A stretch of 48,363 nt of DNA, from assembly GCA_947626515.1 (NCBI GenBank), contig CANQSL010000005.1, positions 1 to 48,363 on the forward strand, read 5' to 3'. Origin of the DNA: an uncultured Bacilli bacterium (lineage in GTDB: Bacteria > Bacillota_I > Bacilli_A > RF39 > UBA660). The translations under genes and the position numbers were made by a program. The notes beneath the pieces are model-generated. The model was not told the DNA's origin, did no database searches, and was given only the letters and a program-made list of their open reading frames with translations. This document shows, piece after piece, positions 25,424 to 35,504 of the stretch (positions are counted from its first letter, which is position 1; each line of letters opens with the position of its first letter).

Positions 25424-26080
25424 ATGCTTATGAAAAAACAAGTCAAAAATGCAAAAGTATATCATCCTAAGTGGAGTGATGATGGTCAAGAATGTAATTT
25501 TATCCCCCCAAAAATGAAAAAAATAATTATAGGTACAATGCCTCCTAAAAAGCTTTGCGTTAATAAAAAAGGAATAAAAATTTATAGTAATACTCATAAA
25601 AAGAATAATGTTGATTTTTTCTATGGTTCTACAAAAAATAAATTATGGAAAAAATTAAGTGAAATTTCTGGCAATGATAACATTGTTGATAATACAAAAA
25701 ACTTAGTCGATATAAGAAAAAATTTTTCCAAAAAATATCATATAGGATTTGCTGATGTTATTCAAAGTTGTATTCATAATAATAATTCATCATATGATTT
25801 AAACTTATTGAGTATTGAGCCTAATAAAACATTAATAAAAATATTAAAAGAATATCCAGATGTTAAAATTTTTTGTACTAGCAAAAATACTTTAAATTTA
25901 TTAAAAATATATTTTGTCAAAGAAATAAAAGAAAAAGAAAAAGATATTTATGAAGTTAAATTTAGAGGAATTAATCATTATTTTGAGATTTATACAATGA
26001 TAGCAGCAAGTGGAAGAGCAAAAAAAGATGATAAATACAACAATAAATTAAAAAAATTGTTATTAAATAAAGGAGAATAA
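25424..26080 (+). CDS. Uracil-DNA glycosylase superfamily-like protein
   Basis: 218 residues. The N-terminal half has IIIGTMPPKK, where the uracil-DNA glycosylase superfamily carries its G-x-x-P water-activating loop, then FFYGSTKNKLWKKL, typical of this branch. DVIQSCIHNNNSSYD follows. The C-terminal IAASGRAKKD is near the expected second motif. Relatives are annotated only as UDG-family proteins. SD AGGG lies 6 bases before ATG 25424. Substrate and activity unproven. Confidence 0.6.
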   Translation: MLMKKQVKNAKVYHPKWSDDGQECNFIPPKMKKIIIGTMPPKKLCVNKKGIKIYSNTHKKNNVDFFYGSTKNKLWKKLSEISGNDNIVDNTKNLVDIRKNFSKKYHIGFADVIQSCIHNNNSSYDLNLLSIEPNKTLIKILKEYPDVKIFCTSKNTLNLLKIYFVKEIKEKEKDIYEVKFRGINHYFEIYTMIAASGRAKKDDKYNNKLKKLLLNKGE

Positions 26081-26360: not shown

Positions 26361-29300
26361 TTAATTGTTTTTGAAATCTATTAATTCAAAATCATTTTTA
26401 CTTATACTATAAGCAGATTTATCTGTTATAATTGTTGAATCTAAGAAGAATTTTACATCTACAGAGTATTTTTTGTTTAACTCGTCGATATAGTCTGTTA
26501 ATGGTTTGCTTGCTTCTGGAATAGATATTTTTATTTTTTGAAGCAAAGGATATTTTTTTTGAAGATTTTTTAAATCATTTTTTGTATTAGGACCTTGAAC
26601 ATAATAGTAATAAAATTTTAGTAACTCTTCACTTGTTTTTCTATGATCATCATTTGTATACCCTATAATCGTCCAAAAATGAATTTTATCAATCTCTTTA
26701 ATCTTCTTAGGATCCGTTTCTTCATCAAGGGCACAACGTCGATAATTTAGGTATTCTCGAAGAGACTTTAAGAATTCTTTTTTTGTCTTTCCTTGGCTTA
26801 ATAATTCGTGAATATCAGATAAGTGCTTATGTACGCCATTGTCACCACCTATCACGGATTCATTTACTTTTAATTCGATTAAGTATAAATCGGCTGTCTT
26901 CTCTTTTATACCAAAAAATATAGCATCAATTCTTCCTTTTTTATTTAAAATAAAATACTCTTGTTCAAAAGGATAAATTATTTGATTTTTAGATTCTTCG
27001 TTAGCTTTTTGTATTTTAAATTTAATTTCATCTTGAATCATAAATTGAAATTGATATATTTTTTCAACTTCTTCTTTGACAAGCTCAGTATATTTATCGA
27101 CTTTATCTTTCATTTTTGTAGTTATATTGTCTATATCATTAAAGCTTTCAAAATCTTTTATAGCGAATGATTTACCCTTTACAGTTTTAAAATCGGGTTT
27201 TGATATTTGATGAGCATTTAAATCTTTATCATATATTCTACTTCGAATTATTTCATACTCAATATTAGCAAGAGCTTGGATTTCAGTTTCAGTAAGCTTT
27301 TCTTTTTTACTTGAGTCAAAATTTATATGGTATATAATATAATCCTTAATTTCAATATATTCTTCTTTAAATTCTTCTGGATATTTATCTTTAATTGCCT
27401 TATTATCAACAAAATTTTCATCATCGCACAAGATATTTTGAATAGTTTCCTTTATTTCAGGTTGTTCACTAGATAATAAAGTATAAGAAAGAATATATTC
27501 TTTATTCCCATAATTTCTTCTTTTTTCTTGTTCTTCTTGTAAACGTTTCGTTAAGTTTTCTTCACTTAATTCTCCATAGTATGTATTGATATGTAATTTA
27601 GCATTTAGGTTCTTATCTCTTAAATTTTTTTCTAATGTTTCTTTTCGAGCTTGGGCAAAATTAAATAACATATTATCTAATTCTTTTTTTAAATCAGAAG
27701 ATAATTTATCACGTTTTTTTAACTTATACTCTTTACGATATTCAATATCGACTTTAAGAATTTGATGATTTTCCAAATGATTTAATATTTTATTAAGTCC
27801 AGCATGCTCTAGTTTAGATAAGTTTTCCTTGTATTTTCTTTCAATTTTAATACTACAATCTTCTTTATTGACTTTTAAAAGACCCTCTTCAAACATTTCT
27901 TGACGCATTTCTTTTATGTTATTTAAAATTTTTTCTTTTACTTCTTCTTCAAGATTCTTATTTAAGGAAGCGTCTTCTTCAACTGATTTAATCACCTTAT
28001 CTATAGAAGCTTTATTAAACTGAACAACATCATCGCTTACTTTTAAAGATTCCGGTTTTATTTCTAATACTTTTATTCCTTTGTAGTAAAGAATATCTCC
28101 TTTTTCACGAATTCTAATGACAAATTCTCTGTTTCCTTCTTCATCTTTTTTATTGGCAAAATATTTTCTTATTCCTTTTTGATTTTTCCATTCTAAATTT
28201 TCTTCCATACTTTTTTGTTTCCTTTCTACTACTAAAGTTTCACCATCGTCTATAGTGCATAAATTTTTCCCAAAAATCTTTTTTGCAATCTTATGGGATT
28301 CTTCTTTATTTTCTGTATGAATTACAATTACTTTATCAGGTTTTGTTATTTCACTTAATTTTTGCATCGCTTCTATGTCAGCATGACCAGAAGTATGAAT
28401 GAAGTAAGGTTTCATTTTCAATTCTTTCGTTAGATAATTATAAAAATCACGTAATTTAGAATCTTTCCAATCATCTTCTATATATCCGTCCCACATAGAG
28501 TATACTAAACAAGCATTCTTTATATGCTCACTATTTTTTCTAATATAACTTTCTGATGATTGTTTTAAGGATATAGCAAACTTTTGGTCCCATGGTAAAT
28601 CATAAATTATATTTTTAGCGTGATTAATATATCTTTGATGGGGTTCTTTTTTATTCTGATGGGGATTTACAAAAGTTTTAATATCAAGAAAAGTATTAGA
28701 GTTAGGAATATTTGGTAACTTTGATGTAATAGCATTCATGCATAAGTCTTCAATTAAGACATGACTATCTTTGACGGCTTTATAAATAGTAACAATTCTA
28801 TCAATGTTAGTACTAGAACACATAAAATATATTTGGTCATATTTTAAAGTTTCCTTAAAATCTTCTATTAAATATTTTTCGAACTTAGATTTACCTTTTT
28901 TTCTCGTTAATGTAGTTCCTTCTGTTATCAACAAATCAATTTTACCAATCTTTTTTAAGACTTGTTCAAAAAGAATTCCTTTTCTTCCATGATTACGATA
29001 ATCACCAGTATGTAAGACTTTTAAGTTATCTACTTCAATTAAAAACATAGCGGAATTATAACAAGAGTGATCAACAATATAAGGAGTAATAGTAATATCT
29101 TTTACATAGTATTTTTTTTCAAACTCAAAGAAATGAATATCAGGATTTTTTTCAGGTCGAATTTTTTTCTCATATTCATCGATAAATTCGCAGAGAACGT
29201 TATGAATCTCCATTCCCTTTTCTTCTAAATAAATAGGAACTCCCTTTTTTATTTTACTGACACAACCGATATGGTCACCATGAGAATGGGTAATGAAAAC

Positions 29301-29471
29301 CCCATCATAAGTAATATTTGGAGAATCATCTGTAAGTCCTTCAATTGACGTTTGCTCAGTATTATCGAGATTTTCTCCATAATCAATAATAATTTTTGTG
29401 CCCTTACTACTTTTTATTTCGGTAATACAGCCACCTATTTGGTTCGTTCCTTTTATAATCCTTACTTCCAC
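26361..29471 (-). CDS. RNase J-like metallo-beta-lactamase fused to a PD-(D/E)XK nuclease domain
   Basis: 1036 residues, no signal peptide. Residues about 1-415 form a metallo-beta-lactamase/beta-CASP nuclease: HSHGDH (62-67), VDHSCYN, HTGDYR, then HTSGHAD and VIVIHTEN, an arrangement like RNase J and other beta-CASP RNases. Residues about 420-840 are charged helical sequence with no recognised fold. At about 846-870 a PD-(D/E)XK core appears: RIDAIFF...DLYLIELKVN (Asp849, Glu866, Lys868). RNase J itself is about 555 aa and lacks this domain. Start is GTG 29471, with AAGGAGG upstream. Last gene of the six-gene operon. Confidence 0.8.
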   Translation of the reverse strand: MEVRIIKGTNQIGGCITEIKSSKGTKIIIDYGENLDNTEQTSIEGLTDDSPNITYDGVFITHSHGDHIGCVSKIKKGVPIYLEEKGMEIHNVLCEFIDEYEKKIRPEKNPDIHFFEFEKKYYVKDITITPYIVDHSCYNSAMFLIEVDNLKVLHTGDYRNHGRKGILFEQVLKKIGKIDLLITEGTTLTRKKGKSKFEKYLIEDFKETLKYDQIYFMCSSTNIDRIVTIYKAVKDSHVLIEDLCMNAITSKLPNIPNSNTFLDIKTFVNPHQNKKEPHQRYINHAKNIIYDLPWDQKFAISLKQSSESYIRKNSEHIKNACLVYSMWDGYIEDDWKDSKLRDFYNYLTKELKMKPYFIHTSGHADIEAMQKLSEITKPDKVIVIHTENKEESHKIAKKIFGKNLCTIDDGETLVVERKQKSMEENLEWKNQKGIRKYFANKKDEEGNREFVIRIREKGDILYYKGIKVLEIKPESLKVSDDVVQFNKASIDKVIKSVEEDASLNKNLEEEVKEKILNNIKEMRQEMFEEGLLKVNKEDCSIKIERKYKENLSKLEHAGLNKILNHLENHQILKVDIEYRKEYKLKKRDKLSSDLKKELDNMLFNFAQARKETLEKNLRDKNLNAKLHINTYYGELSEENLTKRLQEEQEKRRNYGNKEYILSYTLLSSEQPEIKETIQNILCDDENFVDNKAIKDKYPEEFKEEYIEIKDYIIYHINFDSSKKEKLTETEIQALANIEYEIIRSRIYDKDLNAHQISKPDFKTVKGKSFAIKDFESFNDIDNITTKMKDKVDKYTELVKEEVEKIYQFQFMIQDEIKFKIQKANEESKNQIIYPFEQEYFILNKKGRIDAIFFGIKEKTADLYLIELKVNESVIGGDNGVHKHLSDIHELLSQGKTKKEFLKSLREYLNYRRCALDEETDPKKIKEIDKIHFWTIIGYTNDDHRKTSEELLKFYYYYVQGPNTKNDLKNLQKKYPLLQKIKISIPEASKPLTDYIDELNKKYSVDVKFFLDSTIITDKSAYSISKNDFELIDFKNN

Positions 29472-29473
29472 TT

Positions 29474-30208
29474 TTATATTTCCTCCTTAATAGAATGACT
29501 ATCGTAATTTACTTTATAACTCTTTATTGAAGTTACACCATTTTCAGCATTGTGTTCTAAAATAGTTAATATATTTTTATCTTCTCTTTTAGATAATAAA
29601 TATTTATTAGTATATTTACAAATTGTTTCATATTCCACAATGTCATTTAATTCAAGATTTTGAGTATTTGTATATTTAGCTTCTGCAATTAAAATTATTT
29701 GAACTTTACTTTTTTTCGCAAAATTAAAAAGTTTTTTAAGTACTATTTTTTTATTATAATTAGTCTTCTTTAAAAGAGCATCCAAAGTATTTATAATATA
29801 AATATCTCTTGCTTTTTTATTAACATCCTGATGATAGTCTAGCAAATAGTCTAAATAATCTTTAGAAATTATTTGTTTAATAAAATCCACCATTATTATA
29901 TCATGTTCCTGTAATAATTTTATAGCATAATCCAATCGTTTTATATCTAAGGAATCTTTATAAAGCTTACCTACTACTTCACAAGGATTAAAATAAGCTT
30001 CGACTTCATATTTATCAATTTGAGATATACTAGCGATTAAATTTTCTGTGAACCAATGGTTATTTCCATCAAAGTTAAAAATTTGTATACTTTTTTTATC
30101 ATTTATTCCATAATCACTAATAATTTTATAAATTAATTCCATTTTACCATTTAAAGGTTCTGATGCAACGACTGTTAAAGGTGTATAAATTTCTTTTAAT
30201 TCATTCAT
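29474..30208 (-). CDS. DnaB/RecA-like protein with degenerate Walker A (copy B)
   Basis: 244 residues. The order resembles the DnaB C-terminal RecA domain: VVASEPLNGKMELIYKII where Walker A should be (Gly-Lys kept, Ser/Thr lost), a Walker B-like strand RDIYIINTLDALL, LFNFAKKSKVQIILIAEA (the 'LSQL' strand), and a C-terminal block EYETICKYTNKYLLSKREDK then LTILEHNAENGVTSIKSYKV, as in DnaB's EQDAD...KNRNGPTG. ATP hydrolysis is doubtful. It is paralogous to the gene at 32975. AAGGAG precedes the start; gaps of 2 bases on both sides. Assignment is by pattern only. Confidence 0.55.
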   Translation of the reverse strand: MNELKEIYTPLTVVASEPLNGKMELIYKIISDYGINDKKSIQIFNFDGNNHWFTENLIASISQIDKYEVEAYFNPCEVVGKLYKDSLDIKRLDYAIKLLQEHDIIMVDFIKQIISKDYLDYLLDYHQDVNKKARDIYIINTLDALLKKTNYNKKIVLKKLFNFAKKSKVQIILIAEAKYTNTQNLELNDIVEYETICKYTNKYLLSKREDKNILTILEHNAENGVTSIKSYKVNYDSHSIKEEI

Positions 30209-30210
30209 TT

Positions 30211-30891
30211 TTAAAACTCCTTTGCATTTTTATCAATTAAATCAAAAATTTCAGCATCATTAATAGTATCATCATTATATTCTGTTATTACTTTATAATA
30301 TTTCTTTATAAATTTTTTTAAAAGCATCATATCTTCTTCTTTTATATTAATTTTTCTATTCACTAATACTTGAGGATTATCTTTATCAACACTCATCATA
30401 ATCATATTATTATAATTAAGTTTCCCACAATCATTTTGAAAAAATAATATATTATCTCTATCAAGTGTATAGGAACAATAGAAAACTAAATTCATGGGTA
30501 AACCTGATTTTCTTTTACTTAAACTAGTACAGCCAAAATGATCATTTGTTTCATCAAAAAATATTTGTTTTGCTTCAAATTCTGGTATATCAGCATTCCA
30601 ATAATCTAATAATAATTTTTGATGTATTTTTACATATTCAATCACATTTTTAATATACAATTTATCATTTTTATTAATTTTTTTTAATTCTTCTAAAATT
30701 TTAATACTTTCTATATCAACTGTTAGAAATTTTTCTTGTTCCCAAATTTTAAATTTTATTTGTGGAATAAATCCTTTTAATTTTTCTTTTCCATTATAAA
30801 CTAAATATAAAACTATATTCATATATCTATCATTCTCAAACGATATGGTGGCTTTAAATAATTTGTTTGTCTTTTCTTCTTTTAATTTCAT
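30211..30891 (-). CDS. Hypothetical protein of the PolC-like operon
   Basis: 226 residues, soluble, no family recognised. The N-terminal half alternates hydrophobic residues as in beta strands (ATISFENDRYMNIVLYLVY, FIPQIKFKIWEQ), and the C-terminal half is charged and helical. ATG 30891 is chosen because GGG lies 9-11 bases upstream; ATG 30900 immediately follows that GGG. It sits between the polymerase-like and RecA-like genes with gaps of 2-16 bases, so it is part of the same unit, perhaps a small binding or accessory subunit. Confidence 0.7.
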   Translation of the reverse strand: MKLKEEKTNKLFKATISFENDRYMNIVLYLVYNGKEKLKGFIPQIKFKIWEQEKFLTVDIESIKILEELKKINKNDKLYIKNVIEYVKIHQKLLLDYWNADIPEFEAKQIFFDETNDHFGCTSLSKRKSGLPMNLVFYCSYTLDRDNILFFQNDCGKLNYNNMIMMSVDKDNPQVLVNRKINIKEEDMMLLKKFIKKYYKVITEYNDDTINDAEIFDLIDKNAKEF

Positions 30892-30907
30892 TTTTATCAT
30901 CCCATAA

Positions 30908-32959
30908 CTATTCTTGATATTTTCGCATTATCTCACTAAAAATTGTTGGGAATTTAGCTTTATACCAAGAAAATTTATATGTGATTAAAGTATAAGAAAT
31001 AATATGAGATTTTAAAGGTACATAACCTATATTTTCTAAGTTAGAAATATCTTCTCGGTAGACTTTTAAGTCTTTAATTAGTTCTTTATTTTTTGATAAA
31101 TCTTTAATTTTATCTGTTATACCATTACTATGTAAAAGACCAACTATATTAATTAGATCATCAAAGTTATGAGGTTTTATAATATTTATTATAGATTTAG
31201 CAAAATCATAGTCTAACTCAAACAAATCTTCTGTATCACCCTTATTTATTAAATCAAAAACATCTTTATCATTTAACGGTATATCAGATAATTTAACTTT
31301 AGTTAAATCTTCTAATTCTTTTATTATTGTAGGTAATCTATGTCCTAATATATCACATTTAATAATATTTGAATCAAGATCATGATAATCAAAATGTGTA
31401 CTTAAATAATTATATTTATTATCGTTATTGGGATAGTTACAAGGAGTAAAATCATATACTTCTTTGTCCTTAGGTATTAAAAATACTCCCCCAGGATGTT
31501 GACCAGTATGTTTTAATTTGCCTTCTAGTTTTTTTATTAATCGAGATTTTTCTTGTTTACTTATATCTAAATTCTTTTGAATAATCTTTTCTTCAGCACT
31601 AATAGCCTGCGTTAAGGCAATAGCTCCCGCTCTAATCGCATAATCTTTTCCCCAAAAATCAATTAAATAATTGATTAAATCTTTTTGAATACAATTAGCA
31701 AAATTAATATCAATATCTGGAATTTTTTCGACATTTGACCCAAGAAAATTATAATAAGGAATATTAAAGCCATCTTTTTTTAGTTCATTATGACATTTTG
31801 GACAATCTTTATTAGGCATATCTAATCCATAACTATAAATTAAAGTATTATCAAAATAAAATTTTTTACACTTTGTGCAATAATAATGAGGAGGAAGAGG
31901 ATTTATATTGGTAATACCAATTAAATAAGCAATAAATGATGAAGCAACACCACCGCGAACAAATGAAGGGTATCCCATATCATAAGACTTATCAACAAGT
32001 TTTTTAGATATTAAAAATAAAGATTCTGTATTAGTATTAATTATTCCATATTTATTAGAACTATCTTTACCATATAATTCTTCATGTATTCTATTTGTGA
32101 TAATATTCGGAACGTTTTCACCACATAATTCATTTATTTTTTTATTGATTATTCTTAATATTTTATTTTTACTATCTTTTATTTGAGGCAAATAACATTT
32201 ATCACTAAGTATTTTTATATCATTAATTAAACTTGCGAGTTTATTTGTGTTTTTAACAACTATGTCATAAGCTAAATCTTTATCTAAAAAGTTAAAGTCA
32301 TTTAACATTTCCTTAGTTGTCTTTAAATAACTAGCTAGTTTATTATCTTTAAAAAGCATTTTATAGTCGTCTTGTTCTTCTTTCTTTAAATAACAAACAT
32401 TACCTGTTGCTATAACAATTTTACGAACTTCTTTAGCAATATTTATTATTCTTTTCAAATAATTCTTATCTAAAGCTGAATTTACCTCAATAAAATCCCA
32501 CCATATTAAATCATCTTTAATTTGATAATCTTCTAAATTATCATATATATCTTCCATATAAGATAAATCTAAACCATATAATAATCCTTCACTTAAAAGA
32601 CCTAATTCATCTTTAGTTATAACTTGTTTTCCATATTTATCTAAATAAGTAGTTTTAATTTTAGTAATTATTCTATATAAGTTTTTTAATCCTTCTTGGG
32701 TTCTTACTAATATTGTAATTGGAATAATAGTATCAAATACAAGCATTTTTACAACAGTTCCATAAATAATCTTAAAATCAGTAATATTGTTAGTCTTTAG
32801 ATATTTCTCTATTTTAGGAAAATTATAAACATTATTAAAATCAGTAATAGCGACTCTATTTAAGCCTATACTTTTTGCATAGTTAATTAACTCTTTAAAA
32901 TTAATAATACTATCTTTAGTCATTTTAGTAAAAACTTTAAATTCTACTCTTTCTAACAT
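30908..32959 (-). CDS. Minimal PolC-like DNA polymerase III alpha homologue
   Basis: 683 residues against about 1440 for PolC. Residues 1-75 resemble a PHP domain whose metal ligands are lost (HLHTPMS becomes FKVFTKMT; TDH becomes TDF). No exonuclease is inserted. The palm is clearly PolC: VRGGVASSFIAYLIGIT, NPLPPHYYC, a four-Cys zinc motif (Cys361, 364, 386, 389), KIPDIDINF with Asp415 and Asp417, TGQHPGGVFLIP, and KCDILGH with Asp536, giving all three catalytic Asp. After about 560 the fingers are short, ending WYKAKFPTIFSEIM; no OB or beta-clamp-binding tail. SD AAGGAG. Confidence 0.85.
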   Translation of the reverse strand: MLERVEFKVFTKMTKDSIINFKELINYAKSIGLNRVAITDFNNVYNFPKIEKYLKTNNITDFKIIYGTVVKMLVFDTIIPITILVRTQEGLKNLYRIITKIKTTYLDKYGKQVITKDELGLLSEGLLYGLDLSYMEDIYDNLEDYQIKDDLIWWDFIEVNSALDKNYLKRIINIAKEVRKIVIATGNVCYLKKEEQDDYKMLFKDNKLASYLKTTKEMLNDFNFLDKDLAYDIVVKNTNKLASLINDIKILSDKCYLPQIKDSKNKILRIINKKINELCGENVPNIITNRIHEELYGKDSSNKYGIINTNTESLFLISKKLVDKSYDMGYPSFVRGGVASSFIAYLIGITNINPLPPHYYCTKCKKFYFDNTLIYSYGLDMPNKDCPKCHNELKKDGFNIPYYNFLGSNVEKIPDIDINFANCIQKDLINYLIDFWGKDYAIRAGAIALTQAISAEEKIIQKNLDISKQEKSRLIKKLEGKLKHTGQHPGGVFLIPKDKEVYDFTPCNYPNNDNKYNYLSTHFDYHDLDSNIIKCDILGHRLPTIIKELEDLTKVKLSDIPLNDKDVFDLINKGDTEDLFELDYDFAKSIINIIKPHNFDDLINIVGLLHSNGITDKIKDLSKNKELIKDLKVYREDISNLENIGYVPLKSHIISYTLITYKFSWYKAKFPTIFSEIMRKYQE

Positions 32960-32974
32960 TTTAATATCAACTCC

Positions 32975-33580
32975 TTAACATATATCTATAATATTATAGT
33001 TTTTATCATCAAATACAAATTTTAATGAATCATTTACTTTAGCGATTTTCCAATCTAAGAATTTATTTTTTAATTTACTATCCTCAGTAAATAAAATTAC
33101 ATAAGTATTATTTTTTTTACTATACTCTTCTATAGTTTTTTTAATCATTTTAATATCTTTATTTGATTCTTTTAAAAGTTTGTCAAAATCATCAATTATA
33201 ATGACATCATAAGATTCAATTGTATTTTTATCAAATATATAATCTAGCCAATCTTCATCAAAAACTTTATTGTTACTTATTACAATGTAAGATTTACGTA
33301 TCTTTTCTATAGCTAATACAAATTTATTATAATCAATTTTCTCTTTTGTTACTGCCTTTGTTTTTGCTCCTACTGGAAACATATAACTTTCTACAAGTTT
33401 AAAGTCTATTTTTGAAATTAAAGAGATTAAACGATTTACATAATAAGAAGAATTAAATATAAATGATTGCAAATAAATCTTTTTTTGTTCTCTTATTCCA
33501 TATACTTCTAGAATATTAATTAACAAAGGAATATGGTTGTTTAAGTTATCACTAAGGATAACAGAAATATTATCATTCAT
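32975..33580 (-). CDS. RecA-like protein lacking Walker A (copy A)
   Basis: 201 residues, paralogous to the protein at 29474: VILSDNLNNHIPLLINILEVYG aligns with VVASEPLNGKMELIYKIISDYG, and later WLDYIFD with YLDYLLD. Walker A is gone entirely (NLNNHIP). Walker B-like YDVIIIDDFDKLL is intact, and NNTYVILFTED is the following strand. It lacks the C-terminal block of copy B. The start overlaps the KOW gene by 8 bases. Possibly one half of a pseudo-ATPase pair. Confidence 0.55.
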   Translation of the reverse strand: MNDNISVILSDNLNNHIPLLINILEVYGIREQKKIYLQSFIFNSSYYVNRLISLISKIDFKLVESYMFPVGAKTKAVTKEKIDYNKFVLAIEKIRKSYIVISNNKVFDEDWLDYIFDKNTIESYDVIIIDDFDKLLKESNKDIKMIKKTIEEYSKKNNTYVILFTEDSKLKNKFLDWKIAKVNDSLKFVFDDKNYNIIDIC

Positions 33581-34352
33581 GAGTTTCTTCCTCTTTCAAT
33601 ATTCTGTCATCCTCAGCAAATTCAATAGGACAATCTTCATTAAAAAGATTAACAGTAGCTCCAATATGATTGTTATCTAAATCAATATTCGTAATAATAG
33701 CTTGAAGATTTTTAAAAGGACCAGTTAAAATCTTTACTTTATCTCCTTTCTTTACATCTTCAAACGGAGTATATACATCAATTGTTTCTTCTTGGCTATT
33801 ATTTCTAGTCTTTCTTATATTTGGCCAAACACCTAATCTAACATGATTAGATTTTACTAATGGAACATCATACCCATAAAAATACTTATTAATGCAATAC
33901 ATTTCGTATTCCGTAGATAAGCCATAAAGTACTGGAGCATCATAGCCAAAATAAGTTGTAGCACAAGATATATATTTTTGAACATCAGTAGAATCTTGAT
34001 GTTCTTTTAATAATTTACATTGATCAATAATATTATCTTTAGAATCTAGAAGCTCTGCAATAAAATCCATATCATAATCGGCAGGTGTAATAATGCCAAG
34101 AGACTCAGGAATAATTAAAGGTTCCTCACTATCTCGTACTTCTAAACCATAATAATACTTAACAATACAATATAAAATATACTTGGCATCTAAATCATAA
34201 TCACGACATGTATTAGCAAAAATAAGTCTATCGATATATTGTCTTACCCCCTTTCGATACTTAAACTTGCTTAATTCCTTTAATTGATCAACAATATTAT
34301 CCTTGCTATCAACTATTTTTTGAACATACTTAGATGAGCGTGCATAATTCAT
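33573..34352 (-). CDS. NusG-type KOW protein with tandem N-terminal repeats
   Basis: 259 residues; the start is ATG 34352, with GGGAGG 10 bases upstream and a -10 close by. C-terminal residues about 198-252 match the NusG/Spt5 KOW domain (KKGDKVKILTGPFKNLQAII, then NHIGATVNLF). The N-terminal half holds two related units (about 8-72 and 97-163), each with DSKDNI-V/I-DQ and ending K-YY/F-YG-L/Y-[DE]V. The NusG N-terminal RNA-polymerase-binding domain is absent. First gene of the six-gene operon; could connect it to RNA polymerase or ribosomes. Confidence 0.75.
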   Translation of the reverse strand: MNYARSSKYVQKIVDSKDNIVDQLKELSKFKYRKGVRQYIDRLIFANTCRDYDLDAKYILYCIVKYYYGLEVRDSEEPLIIPESLGIITPADYDMDFIAELLDSKDNIIDQCKLLKEHQDSTDVQKYISCATTYFGYDAPVLYGLSTEYEMYCINKYFYGYDVPLVKSNHVRLGVWPNIRKTRNNSQEETIDVYTPFEDVKKGDKVKILTGPFKNLQAIITNIDLDNNHIGATVNLFNEDCPIEFAEDDRILKEEETHE

Positions 34353-34371
34353 TAAAATTTTTCCTCCCTTC

Positions 34372-34380
34372 ATTATATCA
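34372..34380 (-). promoter_or_regulatory. Extended -10 promoter of the PolC-like operon
   Basis: TGATATAAT on the minus strand 20 bases before the KOW start codon, placing the start near 34365. No clear -35. It lies downstream of a strong terminator, so the operon is transcribed separately from the winged-helix gene. Confidence 0.65.
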
Positions 34381-34418
34381 AGTATATCACTCTTTTTTTT
34401 ACACTTTTTAGGCGACAA

Positions 34419-34458
34419 TAAAAAAAATATTATTTCCTTGTTTTTAAGAAAATAATAT
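34419..34458 (-). terminator. Strong terminator after the winged-helix gene
   Basis: Minus strand ATATTATTTTCTT, 6-base loop, AAGGAAATAATAT and seven T: a 13-bp stem with one G-T pair and a U-tract, 17 bases after the stop codon at 34476. Confidence 0.9.
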
Positions 34459-34475
34459 AGTTTTTGTAATTGCAT

Positions 34476-35504
34476 TTAATGAATAATATACCATTCATTT
34501 TTACTATAATCATAACCAATATTGCGATATAATTTATTGTAATCTATCATATATCTTTCAGCTTGTCTTATTGAAATATTAAATTCATTTGCTAAATTAC
34601 TAGTTTTTATAGTTTTTTTATTCTTCAAAAATTTATTTATAGCAGAAAGAATTTTAATTTTAGATGAAGAAAAATTTATTCTTTCAGTATTTAAAATATA
34701 ATCATAATACAATTCTGTTATTTCATAATCGTCAAGTATTTCACTAGCAAAATTAATATTAGTATATTTAATATAACTTTGCTTAATCTTTTCTTCATCC
34801 TCAGTAATAATATAAACTAAATTAAAATGATTAAATAATTTCCGATATTTTTTATCTATACTAAGACAATCTTTTACTTCTAAAAAATTATCATAAATCA
34901 ATAATAGAAAACCTTGCTTTCTTTGAAGATCAATAATATTTTTTACAGATTTAATATAAGGAAAATGAAAAAAGGTATGATTTTCATCTTCATATTTAGC
35001 AATATCTCTTTTATCAGTAAGAGAACCATTATAATTACCACATATGTAAACATTTCTACCTACATGGTCTAAGCCAATACTATTTTTATAGGGTTCTATT
35101 TTAATAAATGGATACTTATCCATATTTAATTTTTTTAATAATTCATTTTGTAATTTTAAAGCTTCATCATAAGATGCATTTTCTTTAGTACATAATATTC
35201 TTAATATTTTAGGATTTACATAAATAAATATTATTAAATCACATGGAACAATTTTATTACTAAATAAAGGGATTCCATTTTTTATTTCAATTAATTTTTC
35301 AAGAGATTTAACATCATTTTGATTCACATTAATATAACCATACTTAGCTATAAATAAATCATCTAATACTTTTTGATATAATTCGCCTGTTTTTAATTGA
35401 TATTTTAAACTATTAAAATCTATTCCAATAGTACCTAATATTAAAATACTTTTATCTGTATTTTTATTTAATACTTTTTTGATTTCTTTATACTCTTTAT
35501 TCAT
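34476..35504 (-). CDS. Hypothetical protein with C-terminal winged helix-turn-helix
   Basis: 342 residues. The last about 60 residues form a winged HTH (KIKILSAINKFLKN, TSNLANEFNISIRQAERYM, then a wing ending SKNEWYIIH), like DeoR/YafY-type regulators. The first about 280 residues match no domain I recognise; SILILGTIGIDFNSLKYQ is a strand-loop start without a P-loop. AAAGGAA SD. It directly precedes the PolC-like operon in the same direction but is separated by a terminator, so it is a plausible regulator of it. Confidence 0.7.
   Translation of the reverse strand: MNKEYKEIKKVLNKNTDKSILILGTIGIDFNSLKYQLKTGELYQKVLDDLFIAKYGYINVNQNDVKSLEKLIEIKNGIPLFSNKIVPCDLIIFIYVNPKILRILCTKENASYDEALKLQNELLKKLNMDKYPFIKIEPYKNSIGLDHVGRNVYICGNYNGSLTDKRDIAKYEDENHTFFHFPYIKSVKNIIDLQRKQGFLLLIYDNFLEVKDCLSIDKKYRKLFNHFNLVYIITEDEEKIKQSYIKYTNINFASEILDDYEITELYYDYILNTERINFSSSKIKILSAINKFLKNKKTIKTSNLANEFNISIRQAERYMIDYNKLYRNIGYDYSKNEWYIIH

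Follow-up and report, generated by a model that had tools for sequence, protein, structure and literature searches.

An operon of seven genes and a regulatory gap on the minus strand (positions 26361-35504) of a 48,363-nucleotide stretch of contig CANQSL010000005.1 from an uncultured Bacilli bacterium, here called the window, is probably a horizontally exchanged defence operon directed against phages or other mobile DNA, in which pseudo-enzymes derived from the replisome would act as sensors or controllers. We read it in this way because it combines two invariant nucleases with catalytically relaxed replisome parts, a defence-type regulator and the mosaic and patchy occurrence of the whole cassette. 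The source genome is small (1.37 Mb in 61 contigs, 95.6% complete). The original prediction had recognized six of the genes as a tight operon, and all six open reading frames were indeed found, with an overlap of 8 bases followed by gaps of 15, 7, 2 and 2 bases; what it had overlooked is a regulator gene directly upstream (34476-35504), homologues of which head the operon in close relatives, as well as a conserved cis element (34405-34418). With dN/dS ratios of 0.20-0.28 for every gene of the operon against its closest relative (L064), these are maintained genes, and chance open reading frames or decaying pseudogenes are excluded by these ratios together with the conservation.

In the window, the two nuclease domains form a single protein of 1036 amino acids (26361-29471). 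Its metallo-β-lactamase (MBL) domain matches the structures 2AZ4 (2.3e-25) and RNase J1 3ZQ4 (3.5e-24) as well as the Lactamase_B_2/RMMBL profiles, stays below the curated model of RNase J (37.9 bits versus a cut-off of 820) and has its motifs intact (HxHxDH, D157, E184, H363 and H385). The C-terminal domain, with an E...D...ExK core formed by E838, GRID849 and E866-L-K868, appears to be a nuclease of the PD-(D/E)XK type. This second nuclease is a separate gene in L054, L065, L066 and L117, L054 being a same-genus relative in which MBL and PD-(D/E)XK are thus two genes. All of the 80 MBL sequences compared retain the metal-binding and active-site residues, and all of the 29 PD-(D/E)XK sequences the E/D/E/K and H residues. 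The earlier view that all of these proteins are remodelled housekeeping modules therefore holds for the altered PolC, DnaB and KOW proteins and not for the two nuclease domains, which retain every catalytic residue.

The replisome-derived proteins present the opposite picture. A protein of 683 amino acids matches PolC-type DNA polymerase III (3F2B, E 2.8e-95), the profiles DNA_pol3_alpha (1.4e-36) and PHP (1.6e-12) and the PolC NCBIfam model (4.8e-147, over positions 617-1198 of 1445; 491.6 bits versus a cut-off of 873). It consists of PHP, palm/thumb and shortened fingers, i.e. it has no OB/exonuclease and no duplex/clamp-binding domain, and of the residues invariant across five authentic PolCs it retains 77 of 139 in the palm/thumb, 25 of 91 in the fingers and 0 of 47 in the C-terminal part; a full-length PolC is separately encoded in the same genome (contig C21). 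The acidic triad is present in the window copy (D415/D417/D536), intact in 17 of 41 PolC-like proteins and lost in the other 24, with all three aspartates replaced by asparagine (NNN) in the same-genus relative L054. What persists best of PolC across loci is the palm segment, which has the RG...S motif. Further pieces of PolC turn up repeatedly as genes of their own, namely the exonuclease (1.5e-19 to the PolC exonuclease region), in which the D-x-E motif is mostly lost, and PHP (4.7e-13), and in the strongly degenerate members L098, L099 and L085 most PolC features are gone. With fingers and C-terminal part so poorly retained and the triad lost in most relatives, the suggestion that the module might be DNA-synthesizing is not supported; the defence-like alternative offered along with it fits the nuclease pair, the regulator, the neighbourhoods and the mosaic, patchy distribution.

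The two RecA-like proteins of 201 and 244 amino acids contain neither a DnaB-type Walker A motif nor a DnaB-type N-terminal domain. Walker A is missing altogether from pseudo-ATPase 1 and degraded in pseudo-ATPase 2 (EPLNGKMEL), for which the direct DnaB_C profile match is weak (0.0011). The family profile of pseudo-ATPase 1 matches DnaB 6kza with an E-value of 0.007 and a protein of L123 with 9.5e-6, the latter being itself a DnaB_C protein (1.4e-55), and because such intact relatives link them, descent of the pair from the DnaB C-terminal domain can be regarded as secured by sequence comparison. This bears out the expected pair of RecA/DnaB-like proteins with degraded Walker A, as does a survey of 35 DnaB-derived proteins: GK[ST] is present in nine when read from the list (five with a stricter scripted pattern), mostly clostridial or residing in other elements, with L135 as a Bacilli-class carrier, is found in none of the window clade, and Walker A is gone from nearly all Bacilli cassettes. 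The KOW protein aligns as two tandem repeats of about 85 amino acids followed by a NusG-CTD-like KOW end (KOW 1.5e-6); its NusG match (7.7e-7) is confined to the last approximately 54 residues and no NGN domain was found. For the 229-amino-acid protein there is no Pfam or PDB match and an AlphaFold2 (AF2) pLDDT of only 58; it has relatives in closely related cassettes and, with the nuclease absent, in two further elements. Since dN/dS between the window and close relatives is 0.14-0.40, and mostly below 0.3, for the regulator and the pseudo-enzymes, these seemingly 'dead' genes encode maintained proteins. Parts of the set were also seen elsewhere: in a serine-recombinase element (L056:8707-13527), a PolC fragment and a relative of the 229-amino-acid protein accompany two DnaB-like genes that have Walker A, and there is no MBL; in another (L060:3292-5467), an MBL relative is flanked by small SSB and ClpP genes and by a gene for a protein with the repeat of the KOW protein.

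The regulator is modelled by AF2 (pLDDT 91) as an adenylate-kinase-like N-terminal domain without P-loop, a middle domain and a C-terminal winged helix. In fold searches residues 18-142 match adenylate kinase (Z 9.7) and residues 277-342 BrxR (Z 8.8), with 24% identity to CapW over 66 residues. Its helix-turn-helix (HTH) segment gives the only PADLOC match among the window proteins (WYL, 8e-4); the winged HTH was matched to BrxR/CapW, and a WYL domain was not identified. The leader downstream of this gene contains a hairpin with a T-run, then TTGTCGCCTAAAAA at 34405-34418. Of 27 loci, 17 have the corresponding element, TGTC[CG]..T..AAA, 3' of their HTH gene (in shuffled sequences, 0.22 on average and at most 2), and 15 of 3200 control windows have it, figures to be read with the knowledge that the pattern was tuned on the same regions, two earlier versions having been too strict and the third being used for the statistics. 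In more distant loci it persists beside regulators just 24-53% identical. In the simplest reading, the leader would be an autoregulated promoter.

An important question is whether these genes belong together. A search seeded with the MBL alone yielded 566 relatives in GTDB species genomes, of which the closest 80 loci (75 non-redundant), almost all from uncultured Bacilli and Clostridia, were analysed; the figures describe these rather than all 566, and because many contigs stop near the locus, co-occurrence counts are lower bounds. Among the 75 loci, a PolC-derived gene is present in 41, a DnaB-derived gene in 22, a KOW repeat in 22, an HTH regulator in 24, a WYL regulator in 12, a PolC-exonuclease-like gene in 13, a PD-(D/E)XK nuclease in 26 and another protein with an ELK-type motif in 23. 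Any PolC-, DnaB- or exonuclease-derived neighbour occurs in 50 of the 75 and a PD-(D/E)XK-like nuclease partner in 48, and none of these genes was found in 16 control regions (256 kb). Thus, the set is conserved as a unit, as the original prediction had proposed to check, with PolC-MBL, PolC-RecA and MBL-PD-(D/E)XK fusions among its variants. Clostridial loci additionally include a DnaJ C-terminal-domain fragment near the MBL gene (L127:11536-11874; 112 amino acids, DnaJ_C 2.3e-8), possibly a housekeeping remnant, and a DUF2779/Cas4-like gene (L139:10776-12281) that recurs in five of them. An FtsZ-like decoy suspected by eye in L055 had no family match and was dropped.

The cassette is mosaic. 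Between the window and L117 six genes are 79-88% identical and the MBL 45%; between the window and L066 the PolC-like and 229-amino-acid proteins are 83-86% and the KOW and HTH proteins 44-53% identical. Flanks and partner sets vary among same-genus loci, and the MBL occurs in six of 98 relatives, i.e. its distribution is patchy; for an empty-site comparison, the only close genome with the LysR flank (G002) was not syntenic. A phage origin was rejected, the MBL and the 229-amino-acid protein having no relatives in the viral contigs or phage records searched; nor did these show the set as a known phage or plasmid replication module, which had been named as a possible refutation. The PolC-like protein is nearer to cellular PolC (4.8e-147) than to phage families (1.1e-50), and the phage PolC matches listed are just 29-36% identical and lie mostly in small unannotated records.

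In a tree of the palm region, Bacilli cassettes branch outside every host PolC sampled, and the clostridial cassettes L111/L130/L133 are placed next to PolCs of clostridial hosts (support 99/98). This suggests repeated capture of PolC from hosts, which would favour decoys. Although both groups are strongly supported, we do not claim repeated capture, because a single clade of PolC-like proteins was not rejected by the approximately unbiased (AU) test (p 0.119). Host PolCs in several genomes (L061:1590-6173 and others) are 1500-1900 amino acids long, and their palm segment, at about 380 residues versus 311, has insertions that the cassette copies do not share. In L094 (5419-15098) the remaining cassette, with no other PolC-like cassette gene, lies 92 bases upstream of what is apparently the sole full-length polC of the genome.

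The neighbourhoods are of defence type. Plasmid relatives of the MBL, with Bacteroidota and Pseudomonadota among their hosts, are 24-30% identical and adjoin McrBC and WYL genes (Butyrivibrio), restriction-modification genes (Rhizobium), DUF262, UvrD and PD-(D/E)XK genes (Ochrobactrum) or toxin-antitoxin and Fic genes (Cereibacter), or have two DUF262 genes, an exonuclease and a WYL gene nearby (Prevotella). The DUF262 proteins are of the GmrSD type, and by motif a PD-(D/E)XK-like neighbour is present in three cases. On two of the plasmids (Prevotella, L175:8953-11024, and Cereibacter, L179:8977-10847) a metallophosphatase gene lies directly 3' of the MBL gene. Around chromosomal loci, PADLOC recognized AbiEi, AriA, RT, HEC and PDC families, and fewer families around controls.

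How might such an operon work? The effector would be the RNase J-like MBL nuclease together with its partner, a PD-(D/E)XK nuclease to which it is fused in the window, and the sensor or controller would consist of descendants of PolC, the RecA domain of DnaB, a NusG-type KOW protein and an adenylate-kinase-like domain that have kept their fold and mostly lost their chemistry. Before infection, the pseudo-enzymes would hold the nucleases inactive, with the BrxR/CapW-like winged-helix regulator keeping expression low from the conserved site 3' of its own gene. An invader attacking or engaging the host replisome, or presenting abnormal replication intermediates, would then bind the pseudo-replisome and release the nucleases to destroy nucleic acid. 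Complex formation, inhibition, trigger, target and protection are all inferred. Guard logic is known in bacterial immunity (PMC12409349), as are MBL nucleases whose effector activity is gated (PMC12799240) and host replication factors that are targeted by phage proteins (PMC4887207), which makes a defence system of this kind plausible. The defence role itself is moderately supported; within it, a protein decoy or guard has somewhat less than an even chance, and sensing of nucleic-acid structure is a possibility we hold more tentatively. Likewise tentative is the most far-reaching version, a 'pseudo-replisome immunity' for which gut Bacilli and Clostridia would repeatedly have captured PolC, DnaB and other core enzymes, catalysis being lost and engagement of the bait freeing the paired nucleases. 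That such bait would be aimed at invader proteins attacking host replication is a similarly doubtful part of it.

Several observations weigh against a defence operon controlled by replisome-derived proteins. PADLOC (2023) recognized no window protein as part of a system, its sole MBL match concerned one of 15 members, to LmuA, and no known defence gene was found among the window flank genes scanned. The PADLOC comparison of neighbours is small and tallies families rather than proteins, with mad3-matching ABC ATPases discounted. The plasmid MBL relatives examined are mostly without replisome-derived genes, which are thus not universal, and the AU result above leaves a single origin of the PolC-like proteins standing. 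Finally, since its acidic triad is kept, the window PolC-like protein may have weak activity.

The closest rival, which is not very likely in our view, takes the pseudo-PolC and pseudo-DnaB as still binding primer-template or fork DNA and thereby directing the nucleases against replication intermediates of foreign origin, i.e. as structure sensors rather than protein bait; the persistence of the RG...S palm segment, the KOW domain, the retained PHP and the recurrent exonuclease pieces would fit this, whereas the loss of most PolC features in the degenerate members L098, L099 and L085 speaks against it. Recalling the ImuA-ImuB-DnaE2 mutasome, in which a C-family polymerase works with a RecA-like protein, one could also imagine a module for DNA repair or mutagenesis that works where DNA is damaged and whose nucleases process the ends. 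The window clade does combine a C-family polymerase of intact triad with RecA-fold partners in one operon, but triad loss in 24 of 41 relatives, including L054, the missing fingers and clamp-binding part and a patchy, mosaic occurrence unlike that of a repair core make this improbable; moreover, the domain scan of the operon revealed neither an ImuB/Y-family polymerase nor a gene of the LexA type, and the RecA-like parts are DnaB-derived.

Quite improbable, too, is the view that a mobile element or phage with its own polymerase and helicase brought the operon as its replication module or as cargo. Relatives of some parts do reside in serine-recombinase elements (L056, L060) and flanks differ between loci; yet the domain scan detected no primase, initiator or integrase domain in the operon, the helicase parts have no Walker A, and both the affinity of the PolC-like protein to cellular PolC and the failure to find the MBL and the 229-amino-acid protein in searches of phage and viral collections speak against it. 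A housekeeping RNA/DNA decay complex, i.e. a variant of an RNase J-like degradosome with no immune role, could account for an MBL of the RNase J/CPSF type and is hard to reconcile with its presence in six of 98 relatives, with the swapping of modules and with partner sets that differ within one genus, so that we regard it as very improbable. A defence operon remains our preferred reading, and its features are listed below.

Features of the putative defence operon in the window.
Feature	Position	Strand	Basis
Regulator, 342 amino acids	34476..35504	-	AF2 and fold matches; conserved in 24 of 75 loci
Leader, putative promoter/operator with hairpin/T-run and TTGTCGCCTAAAAA	34353..34475	-	Conserved element
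KOW protein	33573..34352 (alternative start: from 34475)	-	KOW and NusG profile matches
DnaB-derived RecA-fold pseudo-ATPase 1	32975..33580	-	Profile versus DnaB 6kza and versus L123
PolC-derived protein	30908..32959	-	3F2B match; triad D415/D417/D536
229-amino-acid protein, no family assigned	30211..30900	-	Present in close relatives
DnaB-derived RecA-fold pseudo-ATPase 2	29474..30208	-	DnaB_C 0.0011
MBL/beta-CASP-type nuclease domain, residues 1-420	28212..29471	-	Matches to PDB 2AZ4 and 3ZQ4
PD-(D/E)XK nuclease domain, residues ~421-1036	26361..28211	-	Alignment; conserved core

Adjoining the operon (25424-26080) is a gene weakly resembling DNA-deoxyinosine glycosylases (TIGR04274, 1.5e-4), which is absent at the equivalent place in L064.

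As the original prediction had surmised, no description of this gene set was found in the open-access literature or in PADLOC of 2023, and if it is an immune system, as is most likely, it would within these limits be an undescribed one. If our reading is true, the host would have built a defence system out of its replication machinery, and guard or decoy immunity would extend to the replisome. PolC copies ranging from near-intact to fully dead would provide a series for testing how a polymerase becomes a sensor, and the 566 MBL relatives in GTDB species genomes, together with those on plasmids, expose a broad nuclease pair that PADLOC does not recognize. Compared with PolC (3F2B), the window copy has PHP, palm/thumb and acidic triad in common, and differs in lacking the exonuclease, OB and duplex/clamp-binding parts, in its eroded fingers and in the loss of the triad from most relatives. 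With the WYL-family regulators BrxR and CapW (PMC9122601, PMC9122588, PMC9122589) the operon shares a winged-helix fold encoded at its head; here an NMP-kinase-like pseudo-domain lies N-terminal to it, and a WYL domain was not identified. The MBL nuclease-protease pairs that occur in Hachiman, AVAST, Lamassu, DRT and canu (PMC12799240) likewise represent an MBL effector that immune operons of various kinds have taken up and that stays inactive until its partner triggers it; in contrast, theirs is described as resembling DNA-uptake nucleases and is paired with a trypsin-like or caspase-type protease, whereas the RNase J/2AZ4-like MBL described here is combined with a PD-(D/E)XK nuclease and replisome-derived proteins, a domain scan of the seven window proteins having found no protease domain. 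PARIS and Panoptes (PMC12409349, PMC12657218) have no homologous components; what they would share with this operon is the proposed logic, i.e. a decoy that releases an effector once a factor of the invader perturbs it, with a pseudo-replisome as the bait proposed here.

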